From an uncultured Methanomassiliicoccales archaeon (lineage in GTDB: Archaea; Thermoplasmatota; Thermoplasmata; Methanomassiliicoccales; Methanomethylophilaceae), in contig CASEZY010000006.1 of assembly GCA_949292635.1 (NCBI GenBank), positions 62,001 to 126,000 of the forward strand: 64,000 nucleotides of DNA, read 5' to 3'. Positions within the stretch are counted from its first letter, which is position 1; each line of letters begins with the position of its first letter. Below are positions 5,103-12,481 of the stretch, piece after piece. The translations under genes were made by a program, and so were the position numbers. The notes under the pieces were generated by a model. That model ran no database searches, had not been told where the DNA came from, and saw only the letters and a program-made list of their open reading frames with translations.

Positions 5103-5645
5103 ATGGCAGATGCCATGAAGGTGCTTGTGGTCGTGGATTTCCAGAAGGACTTCGTGGACGGCTCCCTGGGGTTCCCGGAGGCCGTCGGACTGGAGCCCAG
5201 GATCGAGGCCAAGGTCAGGGAGTACATGGATGCGGGGGAGATGGTGGTGTTCACCAAGGACCTCCACGACCCCGATAATTATTCAATGACCCAGGAGGGC
5301 AGAAGATTGCCCATCCCCCACTGCGTGGACGACGAGGGTTCTGCCATATACGGGTCTGTGGCGAAGTTCTGCCACGAGGGCAACACCGTGGTGAAGGACC
5401 GCTTCGGTTCCCTGGATCTGGCGGACAGGCTCTCCTTCTACGCCGATATCGAGCAGATCGAGATCTGCGGATTGGACGGCAGCATCTGCGTCCTCTCCAA
5501 CGCTGTGATCCTGAAGGCCGCCTTCCCCGAGGTGAGGATCGTGGTGGATGCCTCATGTACCGCCTCATCAAGCAAGGAGATCAACGACAAGGCGCTGGAT
5601 GTGCTGGAGAACATACAGATAGACGTGGTGAACCGTCAGAATTGA
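5103..5645 (+). CDS. Isochorismatase-family cysteine hydrolase (nicotinamidase-like)
   Basis: About 180 residues. The core reads VLVVVDFQKDFVDGSL (catalytic Asp), VVKDRFGSLD (Lys) and GLDGSICVLSNA (nucleophilic Cys), in family order, with HDPDNY and PHCVDD resembling the metal site of nicotinamidases. Three in-frame ATGs exist (5088, 5103, 5115). A TATA-like TATAACTT at 5061 would place transcription near 5088, so 5088 as a leaderless start is also possible. Release of ammonia from nicotinamide is the likeliest reaction. It overlaps the convergent DUF5685 gene by 10 bases. Confidence 0.8.
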   Translation: MADAMKVLVVVDFQKDFVDGSLGFPEAVGLEPRIEAKVREYMDAGEMVVFTKDLHDPDNYSMTQEGRRLPIPHCVDDEGSAIYGSVAKFCHEGNTVVKDRFGSLDLADRLSFYADIEQIEICGLDGSICVLSNAVILKAAFPEVRIVVDASCTASSSKEINDKALDVLENIQIDVVNRQN

Positions 5646-6556
5646 GAGCCGATGGTGCGGTTCATCTTGCCGCTTATCATGTCGGTGATGGTGGGCTTCA
5701 TCCTGGACCTGCCGTCCATCACCAGGCGCACCGTAGTCGGTATGCCTTGGTAGATGATGTTGTCGCAGATCCCCGTGTTCCTGACCATGGACGGACGCAG
5801 CTTCGCATAGGCGGACTGTATCTCACCCACGATCCTGCGCACCGCGTCGGTGATGTCGTAGATGTTAGCTGTGACAAACGATCTGGCACTTTGATATTCC
5901 TCCACTCCCACCAGGAACGGGTTGTACTGTCCCTTGGCATAGTCGTCGTCCAGGTCGTCGATGGCATCCATCACATAGACCCAGGCACCCAGATTCCTGA
6001 ACAGCCTCTCCAGCACCGGGGTCCATTCGTGGCCGTTCATCACCCGCATCACATCCACCATGCTCTGCGCGGACGCGTATCCCATCTCCACCGGGTCGGA
6101 ACACCCCGCCGCCTCCTTCTCCCTGAGTTTGCCGTATCCCTCCAGGATGAGACGGTCGTACTCCGGAAAATCGGATCTGGCTCTTTGAATGGAACGGTTC
6201 ATCCACAGCGATCCGAAGTTGGATTTCACCGTGGGTCCGTCCAGCTTGTCGTCGAGGAGGTCGTTCCCTGCGACAAGGACGCTGTATGCGGCAAGCTTCC
6301 TGAGCAGCTCGGTGCGCCTGGACGAATGTCTCAGCACGCACAGCGGACCGGACTTGGAGACGGGCACGTCGGTGCCGTCGGAGCTGACGGAGTTGAGGAT
6401 GATGGAAGCGAAGGTCATCTCGTAGCTGACGATCACCGCGGACATTACGCCGTAGCAGTCACGCAGCTGATGGCAGGTCTCGCAATAATAGCCGCGATAC
6501 GCCGCCGCATCCTCCGGTGAGAGGGTCATGTCCACAGGTACGGCGTATCCGAACAT
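5636..6556 (-). CDS. DUF5685 family protein
   Basis: 306 residues starting at MFGYAVPVDM (ATG at 6556), the usual opening of this family; an ATG six codons upstream is also open. Family-like features are YRGYYCETCHQL near residue 21, CVLRHSSRR near 75, and an acidic YVMDAIDDLDDDYAKGQYNPF stretch near 195-215, reminiscent of the helical all-alpha fold proposed for DUF5685. No reaction is known. The acidic DD..DD residues could bind metal, but I do not assign a function. Confidence 0.72.
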   Translation of the reverse strand: MFGYAVPVDMTLSPEDAAAYRGYYCETCHQLRDCYGVMSAVIVSYEMTFASIILNSVSSDGTDVPVSKSGPLCVLRHSSRRTELLRKLAAYSVLVAGNDLLDDKLDGPTVKSNFGSLWMNRSIQRARSDFPEYDRLILEGYGKLREKEAAGCSDPVEMGYASAQSMVDVMRVMNGHEWTPVLERLFRNLGAWVYVMDAIDDLDDDYAKGQYNPFLVGVEEYQSARSFVTANIYDITDAVRRIVGEIQSAYAKLRPSMVRNTGICDNIIYQGIPTTVRLVMDGRSRMKPTITDMISGKMNRTIGSQF

Positions 6557-6610
6557 GCCCCTGGCATGCCCCATCCATTAAATATGTTCATCGGCATCCC
6601 CTGGCATTCA

Positions 6611-6632
6611 AACGGGCAAGCTAGCGCCCGTT
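6611..6632 (+). promoter_or_regulatory. Leader hairpin before the Cys-rich peptide gene
   Basis: AACGGGC (6611-6617) pairs with GCCCGTT (6626-6632) around an 8-base loop. It sits between a TATA-like TTAAATAT near 6578 and a GGTGA ribosome-binding site at 6636-6640, four bases before the ATG. Unlike most genes here, this one would have a leader of about 40 bases. Loop or stem stability could tune translation. Confidence 0.45.
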
Positions 6633-6644
6633 AACGGTGAGCGC

Positions 6645-6905
6645 ATGAGCAACGAAGAGAAATCCACCAAGGAGTTGACCGAGGACTACATCACGCAGGC
6701 CATGCCTGCCAGTTCGCAGATCGTCTACACACCCCCCGCGGACCGCGAGGACGAGAAGGACCCCCACTACGGTACCCCCGGTTGCTACCCCTGCTGCGGA
6801 GCCCACTGCGCCGTCGAGCTTCTGGCCCTCGTCGTGGTCGTACTGGTGTGCTGCGCCTACGGTACCGACGGTACCTGCTGCGACTACTGCTACTGGCCCT
6901 TCTGA
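6645..6905 (+). CDS. Cys-rich peptide, candidate modified-peptide precursor
   Basis: 86 residues in two unlike halves. Residues 1-45 are charged and free of Cys (a leader-like region rich in E, D, K and T). The C-terminal half opens GTPGCYPCCGAHC, crosses a hydrophobic stretch ELLALVVVVLV, then ends in CCAYGTDGTCCDYCYWPF; nine of its roughly 40 residues are Cys. A GGTGA site precedes the ATG by four bases. The next gene, 43 bases downstream, is a radical SAM/SPASM enzyme of the kind that modifies peptides, so this may be its substrate. Alternatively it is a metal-binding membrane peptide. I recognise no named family. Confidence 0.62.
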   Translation: MSNEEKSTKELTEDYITQAMPASSQIVYTPPADREDEKDPHYGTPGCYPCCGAHCAVELLALVVVVLVCCAYGTDGTCCDYCYWPF

Positions 6906-6948
6906 GCACGTACAGCCTCCGCTTCGAAGCTGACGGTCAGATGGTACT

Positions 6949-8100
6949 ATGAAGCCGTTCCTGTCAGTGATAATGAAGCCCACGCTGTCCTGCAACGCTC
7001 ACTGCAGGCACTGCTATCACCGGCCGTCCGAATGCGACGGCACGGTGATGGACGTTTCTACCGCGGAGAATGTGATCCGTATGGTCAGGGCGGAGTACGA
7101 TTCCGCCCGTTATATGTGGACGGGAGGGGAGCCTCTCCTGGCCGGGGAACGCTTCTTCAGGAAGGTGTACGCGTGTCAGAAGGAGGCCTACGGCAAGGCC
7201 ATCGGCAGGTGTGGGAACACCATACAGACCAACGGTCTTCTCCTGAATCCCAGGTTCATGGAGTTCTGCCGTGATTCGAGGATCAACGTCGGCGTGTCCT
7301 TCGAAGCGGGATACGACCGCGGACTGCGCCCGGACATCGACAGGGCGAAGGTGGAGTCCGCGCTGTCCACGATGTCAAAGAAGGGGCACATGTTCTCTGT
7401 GATGGTGAGCATCCACGCCGGCAACATCGGCGACATGAACCGCATATATCATCACTACCGGGACCGCAACATCGCCTTCTACTTCAACCCAGTCCTCAGG
7501 ATGGGCTGCGGTCTCGACAATCAGGACCTGTGGCTGGATCCGAAGGAGTACGCCGAAGCGTGCATCCAAGTTTACGACGAATGGCTGAAAGATGCCAAGA
7601 CCAACATCCCGGTGCTGCCGTTCTATCAGTATCTGAGGGCGTCGCTTTCCGAGCCGAACATCTCCGACTGCGCCCATTCATCGTGTCTCACCAGGTGGAT
7701 CTCCGTGGATCCCAACGGCGATGTGTATCCGTGCTCCAAACCCTGTCCGCCGGAGTACAGGATGGGCAACGTGAACGAGGTGGATTCCATCGCCGAGCTG
7801 TTCGAATCCGAGGGATTCAGGAAGATGCTCATCGGGTCCATCGAGCGCAGGAACACCTGCAAGACCTGCCCCATATTCTCCCAGTGCGCCGGAGGGTGCA
7901 GCGTGGATGCGATGTCCGAGGGAGATATCACGAAACCGGGCTTCTTCTCCTGCGAGTATTACAAGACACTGTTCCAGCACATCCGCGACTCCATCACCGA
8001 GATAATCGACGGGAAGAAGGATTTGGCCGACTACAACCGTTTCGTGAGGGATGCGGTGATAGGTAAGTTGACAAACCCCAATATCGTTACCCCGTTCTGA
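6949..8100 (+). CDS. Radical SAM/SPASM enzyme, candidate peptide maturase
   Basis: 383 residues. The radical SAM cluster motif CNAHCRHC is at residues 15-22, followed by the MWTGGEPLLAG glycine-rich SAM motif near 52. The C-terminal third has SPASM-type cysteines: CLTRW with GDVYPCSKPC, then CKTCPIFSQCAGGC near 305-320, enough for one or two auxiliary 4Fe-4S clusters. Such enzymes form thioether or C-C crosslinks in ribosomal peptides, or mature enzyme subunits. The Cys-rich peptide directly upstream is the obvious candidate substrate, and a Cys-containing 105-residue protein follows after 5 bases. Radical SAM assignment is firm; the substrate is inference. Confidence 0.85.
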   Translation: MKPFLSVIMKPTLSCNAHCRHCYHRPSECDGTVMDVSTAENVIRMVRAEYDSARYMWTGGEPLLAGERFFRKVYACQKEAYGKAIGRCGNTIQTNGLLLNPRFMEFCRDSRINVGVSFEAGYDRGLRPDIDRAKVESALSTMSKKGHMFSVMVSIHAGNIGDMNRIYHHYRDRNIAFYFNPVLRMGCGLDNQDLWLDPKEYAEACIQVYDEWLKDAKTNIPVLPFYQYLRASLSEPNISDCAHSSCLTRWISVDPNGDVYPCSKPCPPEYRMGNVNEVDSIAELFESEGFRKMLIGSIERRNTCKTCPIFSQCAGGCSVDAMSEGDITKPGFFSCEYYKTLFQHIRDSITEIIDGKKDLADYNRFVRDAVIGKLTNPNIVTPF

Positions 8101-8105
8101 TTCAT

Positions 8106-8423
8106 ATGGCAGACGCTACCGTAACCGTTGACGCCGGTGTATGCAGATTCAAGAGCGTGGTCATCGCGACCATGGACGACAACATGGACATCACATTCAA
8201 GGTGAAGAGCGAGTGTCCCATGGTGAGGGCCGCCTGCAAGGAGATCGGTCCGATCCCCGTGTTCGAAGCCGTGGCCATGCCCTTCACCGAGAACGCCGTC
8301 TATGCCGCCTGCTCGGGCTTCGAGCACGTTTCGTGTCCTGTGCCCTGCGCCATGATAAAGGCGGCCGAGGTGGCCGGCGACCTTGCTCTGAAGAAGGATG
8401 TGTCCCTGACCTTCGAAGAGTGA
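8106..8423 (+). CDS. Small conserved Cys-containing protein (DUF6951-like)
   Basis: 105 residues, five bases after the radical SAM gene and presumably in the same operon. It begins VTVDAGVCRFKSVVIA and carries six Cys (near residues 13, 37, 44, 68, 76 and 80), including SCPVPCAMIKAAEVA near the end. The pattern (VDAGVC...F, SECPMV, CPVPC) resembles a small protein found in methanogens that I recall as DUF6951; the number is from memory. Conserved Cys suggest metal or cluster binding. A partner role for the radical SAM enzyme is possible but unproven. Confidence 0.62.
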   Translation: MADATVTVDAGVCRFKSVVIATMDDNMDITFKVKSECPMVRAACKEIGPIPVFEAVAMPFTENAVYAACSGFEHVSCPVPCAMIKAAEVAGDLALKKDVSLTFEE

Positions 8424-8425
8424 AA

Positions 8426-10075
8426 TCAGGATGCCTTCTCGGCATCCTTCTTTCTGATATCCACTCTCTTGATCTTGCCGCTGATGGATTTCGGCAGATC
8501 CTTCACGAACTCCAGCGCCCTGGGGTACTTGTAGGGGGCGGTGTTGTTCTTGGTGTACCTCTGGAGTTCCTTCTTCAGGGCGTCAGACGGCTCGTACCCG
8601 GGTCTCAGGACCACGGTGGCCTTGACCAACTGTCCCCTTATGGGATCGGGGACGCCGGTTACAGCACACTCAAGGACGGCGGGATGCTCCAGCAGCACGC
8701 TCTCGATCTCGAAGGGCGAGATCCTGTAACCTGATGACTTGATGATGTCGTCGTTCCTGCCGGAGTACCAGTAGTATCCGTCCGCGTCCTTCCAGGCGAT
8801 GTCCCCAGTGTGGTGCCATCCGTCGTAGAGGGTGTTCTCGGTCTTGACTGGGTCGCGGTAGTACTCCTTGAAGATCCCGGGGACACGGGGGTCGATGCTG
8901 ACGCAGATCTCGCCCTCCGCACCCAGGGGCACCCTCTTGCCCTCTCCGTCCAAAAGCTCCACGCGGAACTGGGGGGACGGCTTTCCCATGGAGCCGGGCT
9001 TGGGCGTCATGCCCTTCAGGGTCCCGACGATGACGGTGCTCTCCGATTGCCCGAAGGCTTCCATCAGCTGCAGGCCGGTGGCCTTGTACCATGTCTCGTA
9101 GGTGTCGGGGTTGAGCGCTTCCCCGGCGATGCAACAGTTCTTCAGCGAGGACAGGTCGTGTCCCTCGATCCCCGCTTGGAGGTAAAGGCGGAACATGGTG
9201 GGCGGGCAGCAGAACGTGGTTATCCTGTGCTTCTCGATCATGTCCAGGATGTGGGACGGTTCGAACTTGTCGTACTCGTAGACGAACACGGCAGCCTCCA
9301 TGATCCACTGTCCGTACAGCTTCCCCCAGGCGTTCTTGGCCCAGCCCGTGTCCGCCACGGACCAGTGCAGGCCTTCGGGGTCCACCTGGTGCCAATACTT
9401 GGCAAGAAGGATATGACCCAGAGGGTATGTGTAATCGTGGATTGCCATCTTCGGGTTGCCGGATGTTCCGGAGGTGAAGTACATGAGGAAGTAGTCCTCC
9501 TTCCTGGTGGGTACCCTCTCCCATTCCTCGGATGCCGCCTCGACTTCAGCGTCGAAGTCCAGCCATCCCTCCCTGGGGCCGCCGGTGATGAACTTGACCA
9601 TGTCGGAAGGCATGTTCTCGGTGGCGTCCACCTGGTCGGCGATGTCGGCCTCCTTGGTGACTATGACCGCTTTGATATCAGCCGCCTTGACACGATATTC
9701 GATGTCATGGGGCTTGAGCATGTATGTAGCTGGCACAACTACCGCACCCATCTTGTGCAGCGCCACGGAGGCGTACCAGAACTGGTAGCTGTGCTTGAGG
9801 ATCAGCATCACGAAGTCGCCCTTCTTGATCCCGTGGGCCTTCAGCACGTTGGCGGTCTTGTCGCTGAGCCTCTTGATGTCGGCGAACGTGAACGTGTGCT
9901 CCTCGCCGTTCTCGTGTTGCCAGACCAACGCCCTGCGGGTGGGGTCGTTCACGGCGATATCGTCGATGATGTCGTATCCGAAGTTGAAGTCGTCGGGACA
10001 TACAATGCGGAGGTTCTCCAAGACACCGTCGTTGTCGAATGCCTCGCGGATGTACCTCTGGTTGATGTTCCTCAT
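8426..10075 (-). CDS. AMP-forming acyl-CoA synthetase (ANL superfamily), copy 1
   Basis: 549 residues, full length for medium-chain or aryl acyl-CoA synthetases. Motifs are the P-loop-like YFTSGTSGNPKMA near 200, the A5-type EAFGQSEST near 345, YDGWHHTGDIAWKDADGYYWYSGRNDDIIKSSGYRI near 420-455, and the C-terminal PKSISGKIKRVDIR with the adenylation lysine. It activates a carboxylic acid with ATP to acyl-AMP and then acyl-CoA; the acid is unknown. It is a close paralogue of the gene ending at 10242, and a palindrome cluster lies in front of it. Confidence 0.88.
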   Translation of the reverse strand: MRNINQRYIREAFDNDGVLENLRIVCPDDFNFGYDIIDDIAVNDPTRRALVWQHENGEEHTFTFADIKRLSDKTANVLKAHGIKKGDFVMLILKHSYQFWYASVALHKMGAVVVPATYMLKPHDIEYRVKAADIKAVIVTKEADIADQVDATENMPSDMVKFITGGPREGWLDFDAEVEAASEEWERVPTRKEDYFLMYFTSGTSGNPKMAIHDYTYPLGHILLAKYWHQVDPEGLHWSVADTGWAKNAWGKLYGQWIMEAAVFVYEYDKFEPSHILDMIEKHRITTFCCPPTMFRLYLQAGIEGHDLSSLKNCCIAGEALNPDTYETWYKATGLQLMEAFGQSESTVIVGTLKGMTPKPGSMGKPSPQFRVELLDGEGKRVPLGAEGEICVSIDPRVPGIFKEYYRDPVKTENTLYDGWHHTGDIAWKDADGYYWYSGRNDDIIKSSGYRISPFEIESVLLEHPAVLECAVTGVPDPIRGQLVKATVVLRPGYEPSDALKKELQRYTKNNTAPYKYPRALEFVKDLPKSISGKIKRVDIRKKDAEKAS

Positions 10076-10155
10076 AGAATTATCCCTCGATTCGGATGGA
10101 CTGGACGGTAGATTTGATCCATACTAATAAAGATGACGACGAAAAATGAGAAAAA

Positions 10156-10170
10156 CTACGAATTTCGTAG
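10156..10170. promoter_or_regulatory. Palindromic operator upstream of acyl-CoA synthetase copy 1
   Basis: CTACGAA-T-TTCGTAG is a perfect 15-base palindrome. A second copy with 13 of 15 matches (TTACGAAATTAGTAG) lies at 10188-10202, and a weaker one starts near 10221. Centres are about 32 bp apart, three helical turns, on the same DNA face. The site lies 81 bases upstream of the synthetase start at 10075, suggesting cooperative control, perhaps by the neighbouring XRE-cupin protein. Confidence 0.6.
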
Positions 10171-10187
10171 GCACATCAGGAGATGTG

Positions 10188-10202
10188 TTACGAAATTAGT
10201 AG
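10188..10202. promoter_or_regulatory. Second copy of the TACGAA operator
   Basis: TTACGAAATTAGTAG matches the upstream palindrome at 13 of 15 positions and is centred 32 bp from it. It sits between the stop of synthetase copy 2 (10242) and the start of copy 1 (10075). Confidence 0.5.
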
Positions 10203-10241
10203 AATATGTTTAAATAGATTTTACGAAAAACGGAGCAAGAA

Positions 10242-11900
10242 TCAGTTGCCCCTGTTTTTCGCCTCTTCGATGTCCTTGTTGCGGATCTCCACCCTGCGGA
10301 CCTTTCCGCTGATGGATTTCGGCAGCTCCTTCACGAACTCCACCACCCTGGGGTACTTGTAGGGGGCGGTCTCCCTCTTCGTGAAGTCCTGGATTTCCTT
10401 CTTCAGGTCGTCGGTGGGCTCCCAGCCCTCCCTGAGGACGATGGTGGCCTTGATGATCTGTCCGCGGACGGGGTCGGGGACACCGGTGACGGCGCACTCC
10501 AGCACCGAGGGGTGGAGCATCAGGGCGCTCTCGATCTCGAATGGCGAGATCCTGTAACCTGATGACTTGATGATGTCGTCGTTCCTCCCGACATACCAGA
10601 AGTAGCCGTCCTCGTCCCTCCAGGCCACATCCCCGGTGTGGTGCCAGCCGTCCCTGAGGGTTGCGGCGGTCTTCTCCGGGTCGCGGTAGTACTCCATCAT
10701 GATCCCGGGGACCTTGGGCTCGATGGAGACCACAATCTCGCCGTTCACACCGGCGGGGCAGTGCTTGCCGTTCTCGTCCACGATGTCCACCTTGAACTGC
10801 GGTGACGGCTTCCCCATGGAGCCGGGCTTGGCCTGCATGCCGTTGATGGTGGCAACGGTCAGCGTGGTCTCGGTCTGTCCGAATCCCTCCATGAGGGTGA
10901 GGCCGGTGGCCTTGCGCCAGGTCTCGAAGGTATCCGGGTTGAGCGCCTCTCCGGCGATGTTGCAGAACTTCAGGGAAGAGAGGTCGTGACCCTCCAGGCC
11001 GGCGTTGATGTACAGCCTGAACATGGTGGGCGGGCAGCACAGGGAGGTGATCCTGTGCTTCTCGATCATGTCCAGGATGTCGGAGGGGTTGAACTTGTCG
11101 TACTCGTACACGAAGACGGCGGACTCCATGATCCACTGTCCGTACAGCTTTCCCCAGACCGCTTTGCCCCATCCGGTGTCGCTGACGGTGAAGTGCAGAC
11201 CCTCGGGGTCCACCCTGTGCCAGTGCTTGGCGGTGAGGATATGTCCCAGTGAGTAGGTGTGGTCGTGCAGCACCATCTTGGGGTTGTCGGATGTCCCGGA
11301 GGTGAAGTACAGCAGGAAGGGCTCGTGGGCCTTGGTGTCCCTCCTCTCGAAGACCTCGGACGCCTTCTCAACCTCCTCATCGAAGTTCAGCCAGCCCTCC
11401 CTGGGCTCGCCCACCAGGATCCTGGTCTTGACCTCGGGGATGTCGGAGGCCTCCACGGCCTTGGACACCGGGGTCTGGTCGGTGCAGATGATGGCCTTGA
11501 CGCTGGCAGCCTTGACACGATACTCGATGTCGTGCTTGGTGAGCATGTACGTGGCCGGGATGGCGACGGCGCCCAGCTTGTGCAGTGCCACGATGGTGTA
11601 CCAGAACTGGTACCTCTGCTTGAGGATCATCAGCACCATGTCCCCCTTCCCGATGCCCTGGGAGGCGAGGAAGTTGGCCGTCTTGTCGCTGAGCCTCTTG
11701 ATGTCGGCGAAGGTGAACGTCCTTCCGCCGCCGTGGCAGCTGTCCCAGACCATGGCGACGCGGTCCGGGTCGTTTATCGCGATGTCGTCCACGATGTCGT
11801 ATCCGAAGTTGTAGTTCTCCGGGTAGTGGATCTTCATGTCGGTGAGGATGCCGTCCTCGCCGTAGGTCTCCTCCACGTATCTCTCGTTGATGCCCCTCAT
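10242..11900 (-). CDS. AMP-forming acyl-CoA synthetase (ANL superfamily), copy 2
   Basis: 552 residues from the ATG at 11900 (MRGINERYVEET aligns with MRNINQRYIREA of copy 1). It has the same motifs: YFTSGTSDNPKMV near 205, EGFGQTETT near 345, GWHHTGDVAWRDEDGYFWYVGRNDD and PKSISGKVRRVEIR. The start overlaps the stop of the XRE-cupin gene by four bases (ATGA), so regulator and synthetase are translated together. The substrate is unknown. The adjacent divergent 2-oxoacid oxidoreductase makes acyl-CoAs from 2-oxoacids, so both units may interconvert branched-chain or aryl acids and their CoA esters. Confidence 0.88.
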   Translation of the reverse strand: MRGINERYVEETYGEDGILTDMKIHYPENYNFGYDIVDDIAINDPDRVAMVWDSCHGGGRTFTFADIKRLSDKTANFLASQGIGKGDMVLMILKQRYQFWYTIVALHKLGAVAIPATYMLTKHDIEYRVKAASVKAIICTDQTPVSKAVEASDIPEVKTRILVGEPREGWLNFDEEVEKASEVFERRDTKAHEPFLLYFTSGTSDNPKMVLHDHTYSLGHILTAKHWHRVDPEGLHFTVSDTGWGKAVWGKLYGQWIMESAVFVYEYDKFNPSDILDMIEKHRITSLCCPPTMFRLYINAGLEGHDLSSLKFCNIAGEALNPDTFETWRKATGLTLMEGFGQTETTLTVATINGMQAKPGSMGKPSPQFKVDIVDENGKHCPAGVNGEIVVSIEPKVPGIMMEYYRDPEKTAATLRDGWHHTGDVAWRDEDGYFWYVGRNDDIIKSSGYRISPFEIESALMLHPSVLECAVTGVPDPVRGQIIKATIVLREGWEPTDDLKKEIQDFTKRETAPYKYPRVVEFVKELPKSISGKVRRVEIRNKDIEEAKNRGN

Positions 11901-12481
11901 TGCTTGGCACCGTCCTTCATCACAACGGCTATGAAAGTGCATCCGCCCTTGGAGGTGGCGATCATCCCGTGGGGCATGCCCGAGTTGTAGTAGACGCAGT
12001 CGCCCTCCCTGAGTTCCACCTCGCGTCCGTCATGGACGAACCTGAGGGTGCCCTCCAGGATGTAGTCCATCTCCTGGCCCACGTGGGTGGAGGTGGCGAT
12101 GGGCTTGTCCTGCTCCTCCTCGATGTACGGGGCGACGACCACGAAGGGCTCGGAGATCTTGTTCTTGAAGGTGGGGGCGATGTGGTTGTAGGTGAATCCC
12201 TGGCGCCTCTTCATGGGAAGACCGTGGCCTTTCCTGACCACGGAGCACTCGGAGAGGTGGGGGTTGTCGCCGGTGAGCAGCTCGATCATGTCGATGCCGA
12301 ATTTTTCGGCGCACTTGTACAGGAACGTGAAGGAGAAGTCCCTGGTGCCGGATTCGTACTCCCGGTACTCCTCGGGGGTGATCTCCAGGTATGCGGCCAT
12401 GTCCTGGATGGTGAAGTCGCAAAGCTCGCGCACGGCGGAGATGCGCTCCGCGATCTCGGTAATCTTGGGCTCTATAGTCAT
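11897..12481 (-). CDS. XRE-family regulator with C-terminal cupin domain
   Basis: 194 residues from the ATG at 12481. An XRE helix-turn-helix (VRELCDFTIQDMAAYLEITPEEYREYESG) occupies roughly residues 17-45. A cupin_2 barrel (STHVGQEMDYILEGTLRF, LREGDCVYYNSGMPHG) fills residues 130-180. A TATA-like sequence at 12503-12514 would start transcription near 12482, favouring this start over the ATG at 12490. It leads the operon with acyl-CoA synthetase copy 2, so it probably senses an acid or acyl-CoA and controls these genes, possibly also the divergent VOR operon. Confidence 0.85.
   Translation of the reverse strand: MTIEPKITEIAERISAVRELCDFTIQDMAAYLEITPEEYREYESGTRDFSFTFLYKCAEKFGIDMIELLTGDNPHLSECSVVRKGHGLPMKRRQGFTYNHIAPTFKNKISEPFVVVAPYIEEEQDKPIATSTHVGQEMDYILEGTLRFVHDGREVELREGDCVYYNSGMPHGMIATSKGGCTFIAVVMKDGAKQ

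Follow-up and report, generated by a model that had tools for sequence, protein, structure and literature searches.

A conserved trio of genes, encoding a small Cys-rich peptide, a radical SAM/SPASM enzyme and a DUF5685 protein, points to a chemically modified peptide of a new type, possibly anchored by a lipid, in the archaeal family Methanomethylophilaceae. The trio lies in the window analysed here, a stretch of 64,000 nucleotides from an archaeal assembly of 1.48 Mb, and the named relatives of its SPASM enzyme belong to Methanomethylophilaceae from gut, rumen and termite. The reading favoured here, tentatively and at somewhat less than even confidence, is that the peptide is RiPP-like, that it is crosslinked by the SPASM enzyme, and that its Cys-rich tail is lipidated, probably prenylated, by DUF5685; the chemistry of crosslinking and lipidation, the order of the two and the cellular role are what we infer from the genes. 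If this is true, the archaeal product would be a membrane peptide with two modifications, crosslinking and prenylation, and a small Cys-string peptide with a SPASM enzyme of its own, carried by most genomes of a family of gut and rumen methanogens, would be an undescribed archaeal modified peptide.

In the window, the DUF5685 gene (positions 5636-6574, minus strand; 312 aa; Pfam PF18937, 1.7e-47) is divergent from the gene of the peptide (6645-6905, plus strand; 86 aa), whose precursor-like character is judged from its ORF, its relatives, its invariant Cys, Trp and Pro residues and its dN/dS. The gene of the radical SAM/SPASM enzyme (6949-8100, plus strand; 383 aa; Pfam Radical_SAM 2.4e-13, SPASM 5.9e-9) follows after a gap of 43 nt and, 5 nt beyond its stop, begins an ORF for a DUF6951 protein with six Cys (8106-8423, plus strand; 105 aa; Pfam DUF6951 8.5e-29). 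The first-pass annotation of this DNA had described the peptide ORF with its nine Cys, the spacings of 43 and 5 nt, the CNAHCRHC motif, the SPASM cysteines and the six-Cys protein, and the ORFs and Pfam matches bear it out on all of these. Directly 3' of the locus (8426-11942, minus strand) lie two similar adjoining acyl-CoA synthetase ORFs, the first of which matches AMP-binding and is MbcS-like. The genes that flank the module, such as a homoserine O-succinyltransferase (Pfam HTS) together with cysteine-synthase-, MFS- and cation-transporter-like ORFs that were judged by sequence only, look like housekeeping synteny. Locus L075 (at -1575 to -1321 relative to the start of the SPASM gene) and about 35 further loci also have a conserved Cys-rich, zinc-ribbon-like protein of about 84 aa, convergent with DUF5685 and without a confident Pfam match.

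The peptide gene is preceded by a leader hairpin (AACGGGC-AAGCTAGC-GCCCGTT; 6611-6632, plus strand) with a 7-bp stem, placed just 5' of a Shine-Dalgarno-like GGTGA (6636-6640, plus strand) that is found in most relatives. Both elements had been claimed from the letters of the window, and both turned out to be real and conserved: hairpins of score >=5 that end within about 5 nt of GGTG(A) occur in 66% of 65 distinct leaders as against 4.4% of shuffles, percentages that come from related genomes, with shuffles as the background, and whose ratios are not P values. The position of the hairpin is conserved across the family and the sequence of its stem differs between genera, and a hairpin of changing sequence is found abutting GGTGA at 6611-6640 of the window and at the equivalent site of the family leaders. 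In the proposed mechanism, the hairpin and the strong ribosome-binding site would drive production of the peptide.

All nine Cys of the window peptide are in its C-terminal half, where GCYPCC, a hydrophobic stretch, CCAY and the final CCDYCYWPF succeed one another, and the N-terminal half is Cys-free. Family-wide, the N-terminal half is variable and mostly Cys-free, the Cys-rich C-terminal half is conserved and dN/dS is lower in the core, an arrangement consistent with a precursor in which the Cys-free half is the putative leader and the Cys-rich half the putative core. The ORF is under strong purifying selection, with a dN/dS of about 0.11 in comparison with its nearest relative and of about 0.03 in the Cys-rich half, and the invariant features of the peptides are a Tyr and a Gln in the leader, CX2-3CC, a Cys-Tyr motif past the hydrophobic stretch and a terminal W-P. 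The precursor is without any match in Pfam and NCBIfam. Because the most hydrophobic 17-residue window has a Kyte-Doolittle mean of 2.0-3.1 in every peptide, the membrane attachment that had been proposed earlier is plausible. At one locus (L128, genome G021), the stop codon is lost and the peptide frame continues beyond WPF (WPFRGRRW...), by read-through or through an assembly error.

The pairing of the peptide with the SPASM enzyme is well supported. The enzyme is present in 79 of 102 Methanomethylophilaceae genomes, and a peptide of the same type stands directly upstream of its gene at 77 of the 78 loci whose 5' side is intact; at the remaining one (G021) only the stop codon of the peptide is lost, so that adjacency reaches 78/78. 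In three genomes, each at least 91% complete (G005, G017 and G082), the SPASM gene, the peptide and DUF5685 are all absent. No match to the peptide profile was obtained beyond Methanomethylophilaceae among 250 genomes of the class, and co-occurrence, which had been put forward as a check on the system, held throughout, no peptide being found without the SPASM gene. When genome contigs were scanned with the SPASM alignment, 62 of 70 loci belonged to Methanomethylophilaceae, at >=36% identity, and the remaining eight were bacterial, at <=27%. To judge from these sequences, the peptide would thus be an adjacent and co-inherited precursor of the kind by which a RiPP is recognised. One small genome (G007) holds two complete DUF5685-peptide-SPASM modules, on contigs C14 and C9 (L069 and L070).

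The earlier annotation had proposed a system of three genes with the six-Cys protein (DUF6951) as the third, of which the peptide-SPASM pair stood, by adjacency at all intact loci and by joint absence, and DUF6951 did not. DUF6951 is present in 99 of 102 Methanomethylophilaceae genomes, often in several copies (four in the genome of the window), and it follows the SPASM gene in a few genera only; being multicopy and adjoining the pair so rarely, it is probably not specific to the system, and as a partner it was rejected. The conserved third gene is DUF5685, which the same annotation had left unconnected. It is divergent beside the pair at 73 of the 78 loci, and among the five loci without an adjacent copy four are at contig edges and one (G078) has DUF5685 on the same contig, at a distance of about 20 kb. 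In the phylum (390 genomes), DUF5685 scores above the cut-off only in Methanomethylophilaceae.

In the open-access papers searched, DUF5685 is mentioned once, in passing, and no relative of solved structure was found by sequence for either DUF5685 or DUF6951. In the AlphaFold models (pLDDT 84.7 for the window protein and 93.8 for a clostridial DUF5685), the predicted fold is that of an all-alpha class I isoprenoid synthase: of the 50 highest-ranking PDB matches in Foldseek, all are isoprenoid synthases for the bacterial model and nearly all for the archaeal one. The best matches have a probability of about 1.00 and a TM of about 0.3-0.57, but their E-values are just 2e-3 to 1e-2, with none at E <=0.001, which tells against the favoured reading. 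The protein has D108-x3-D112 and D203-x3-D207-x3-D211, which appear to be the two Asp-rich motifs expected of isoprenoid synthases; D108, D203, D207 and D211 are found in 44 of 44 archaeal and bacterial sequences and D112 in 43 of them. C31, C34 and C79 are invariant in the same set and could, by the logic of FTase, be Zn2+ ligands. That DUF5685 is the sole prenyl-diphosphate synthase of the genome was considered and rejected, two ordinary polyprenyl synthases being present besides. With this divergent isoprenoid-synthase fold and both Mg2+-binding Asp motifs, DUF5685 would lipidate the Cys-rich tail of the peptide, most likely by S-prenylation of Cys.

DUF5685 is also carried by 33 of 299 Bacillota genomes. 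At 25 of 30 loci its neighbour has a Cys-rich hydrophobic C-terminal tail (for example CCTKLCIADCCCECMGGDLISCC, LCFGLCIADLCCPFC and CITTCIAYYMFRICCLGCR), and with L260, where DUF5685 carries a fused tail of this type, the tail is adjoining or fused at 26 of 30. In this last case (L260:1501-2628, plus strand, genome G610) it is the C-terminus of DUF5685 that bears the tail (HDCCCDCCDCDDLITTAICCDAADC...). The carrier is usually a J-domain/TPR protein, but the carriers at L254, L261 and L266 are without a J domain, so that what stays constant is the tail rather than the J domain. The J-domain/TPR proteins with Cys-rich hydrophobic tails that adjoin DUF5685 (L235-L259) resemble eukaryotic cysteine-string proteins. 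A TPR-plus-tail profile has 22 strong matches in the 299 Bacillota genomes, and 22 of 22 genomes have DUF5685 as compared with 33/299 overall (Fisher 1.6e-25, ignoring relatedness), a count that is not fully independent of DUF5685, the profile having been built from DUF5685-bearing loci. Since the archaeal partner is itself a Cys-rich peptide, a Cys-rich hydrophobic C-terminus is common to the partners of DUF5685 in two domains of life, and DUF5685 thereby gains a testable function. Four divergent bacterial DUF5685 genes (L262-L265) have no Cys tail nearby, which counts against the favoured reading.

A bolder claim, that DUF5685 is a protein-lipidating enzyme of a new class, namely a Cys prenyltransferase of prokaryotes that has the isoprenoid-synthase fold and acts both on the Cys-string tails of chaperone-like proteins in Clostridia and on the radical-SAM-crosslinked archaeal peptide, has to be considered doubtful. 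The open-access papers searched contained nothing on Cys-tailed bacterial J-domain proteins together with prenyltransferases and no link between DUF5685 and Cys tails, and according to a review of 2017 isoprenylation of Cys was still undetected in prokaryotes (PMC5331326). The characterised trans-IDS-like peptide prenyltransferases, which all act on Trp and not on Cys, are evidence against a Cys-directed DUF5685; Cys prenylation, if confirmed, would be categorically new, the known peptide prenyltransferases of this fold modifying Trp only (PMC13290415).

According to the strongest rival, the peptide is an ordinary RiPP substrate of the SPASM enzyme, but DUF5685 has no catalytic role and serves Cys-rich hydrophobic tails as a holdase or membrane-insertion factor, its fold being merely inherited. 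The chaperone type of the bacterial J-domain/TPR partners and the modest Foldseek scores are in keeping with such a function, but both Asp motifs, for which a mere holdase would have no use, are invariant across archaea and Clostridia, and this explanation is held to be unlikely.

A catalytic DUF5685 might, on the other hand, resemble ComQ and PalQ, peptide prenyltransferases with the isoprenoid-synthase fold (PMC5331326, PMC10853753, PMC13290415), and prenylate the invariant Trp of the peptide rather than Cys. ComQ requires that its peptide have a Trp as the second to fourth residue counted from the C-terminus (PMC5331326), and the archaeal peptides comply with this positional rule in 77 of 77 cases, Trp being the third residue from the C-terminus (the C-terminal tripeptide is WPF in 67, WPN in 5, WPY in 3 and WPL in 2). 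In Trp-directed trans-IDS-like prenyltransferases, however, a conserved Gln immediately precedes the second Asp motif on its N-terminal side (PMC13290415), and DUF5685 has Y200-x-x before D203 and no conserved Gln; moreover, the tails of the bacterial partners have Cys in common and lack a C-terminal Trp. Prenylation of Trp by DUF5685 is for these reasons rather improbable, and S-prenylation of Cys remains the preferred assignment.

The window enzyme has its CX3CX2C motif (CNAHCRHC) at residues 15-22, which leaves no space for an N-terminal leader-binding domain, and its SPASM Cys at residues 241, 246, 262, 304, 307, 313, 317 and 335. Its top profile matches are DynA and the sulfatase maturases, all far under the cut-off, and the NCBIfam scores (173.1 of 450 bits for DynA, 69.4 of 340 for PapB, 60.7 of 425 for SCIFF) place it, as far as profiles can tell, in a separate family outside every curated maturase family. 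In the preferred reading, the enzyme would introduce one or more oxidative (radical) crosslinks into the core, involving either Cys or the conserved aromatics of the C-terminus. Genome G033 has, on contig C6 (L082), a second SPASM enzyme that is 30% identical and has no Cys-rich peptide upstream.

It is also conceivable, with a similarly low probability to prenylation of Trp, that the Cys-rich tail binds a metal or Fe-S cluster or acts as a membrane redox or disulfide relay, the SPASM protein serving in electron transfer or as a scaffold. This would suit the four Cys that are invariant among the peptides (CX2-3CC...C) and the homologue of genome G001 (L068, contig C19, 5600-6700, minus strand), a radical SAM pseudoenzyme that has lost CX3CX2C and GGEP, and has no radical SAM domain by Pfam, but has kept the SPASM cluster Cys, with the peptide, DUF5685 and DUF6951 still in place. 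The spacing of the other Cys of the peptides is variable, however, and CX3CX2C is kept by 74 of the 75 full-length enzymes of the family, the window included, G001 being the exception, which indicates that radical chemistry is selected. The G001 peptide retains its Cys beside an enzyme that lacks the cluster motif, a point against the favoured reading too, as radical chemistry may be dispensable there: either another enzyme is used in this lineage, or the radical reaction can be dispensed with.

Where anSMEs have YPCD, the window enzyme has YPCSK; the residue after YPC, which we take to occupy the position of anSME Asp277 behind an auxiliary-cluster Cys, is Ala in 54, Gly in 22, Ser in 3 and unassigned in 1 of 80 enzymes and is followed by an invariant Lys, and the nearest bacterial outgroup enzymes have mostly YPCD. 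It is very improbable that the enzyme acts as an anaerobic sulfatase maturase, or on some other substrate, and that the peptide is unrelated to it, for although anSMEs are the closest solved structures by sequence (1e-30; PDB 4k36 and 4k37), the clustering with sulfatase maturases that would have spoken for it was not observed, YPC[A/G/S]K being found in 79 of 80 enzymes, the NCBIfam equivalog scores, including that for TIGR03942, being far under the cut-off, no match to sulfatase PF00884 being present in the genome of the window (G000) and the linkage to the peptide being family-wide; a sulfatase-maturase identity was on these grounds rejected.

According to the favoured reading, in which crosslinking and lipidation both act on the peptide, the product would remain cell-associated as a membrane-anchored modified peptide, as the genes are accompanied by neither an exporter nor a protease. 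A dedicated protease or exporter was sought among the ORFs near 67 loci and no conserved one was recognised, which can also be held against a RiPP-like system; many RiPPs use distant proteases or exporters.

Among known systems, the DynA dynobactin maturase, the methanogen peptide rSAM of TIGR04083 and the PapB ranthipeptide maturase are alike in CX3CX2C, a full set of SPASM Cys and a small upstream precursor; here, by contrast, the scores are far under the equivalog cut-offs, the core is a hydrophobic Cys string with WPF at its end, and the product of the third gene is predicted to have an isoprenoid-synthase fold. The anSMEs (TIGR03942; PDB 4k36, 4k37) have the overall domain layout in common with the window enzyme, which differs in having Ala, Gly or Ser and the invariant Lys in place of Asp, in a genome free of sulfatase. 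Eukaryotic CSP-alpha/DNAJC5, which is S-palmitoylated by DHHC enzymes, is like the bacterial partners of DUF5685 a J-domain protein with a Cys-rich hydrophobic tail, whereas the archaeal partner is without a J domain. Archaeal lipoproteins carry an archaeol thioether on the lipobox Cys (cited in PMC13290415) and thus offer a case of an isoprenoid-type lipid on Cys in archaea, but in the peptides Cys are numerous and lie in a hydrophobic tail at the C-terminus, and inspection by eye showed no lipobox-type signal peptide. ComQ-ComX and PalQ-PalX are alike in the predicted fold, in the first Asp motif and in an adjoining small peptide with a Trp near its C-terminus; unlike ComQ and PalQ, DUF5685 keeps the full second Asp motif, is without the Trp-recognition Gln, has partners that share Cys and not Trp, and is accompanied by a radical SAM enzyme. 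By analogy, the module may work like a radical SAM RiPP unit joined to a ComQ-like lipidation step.
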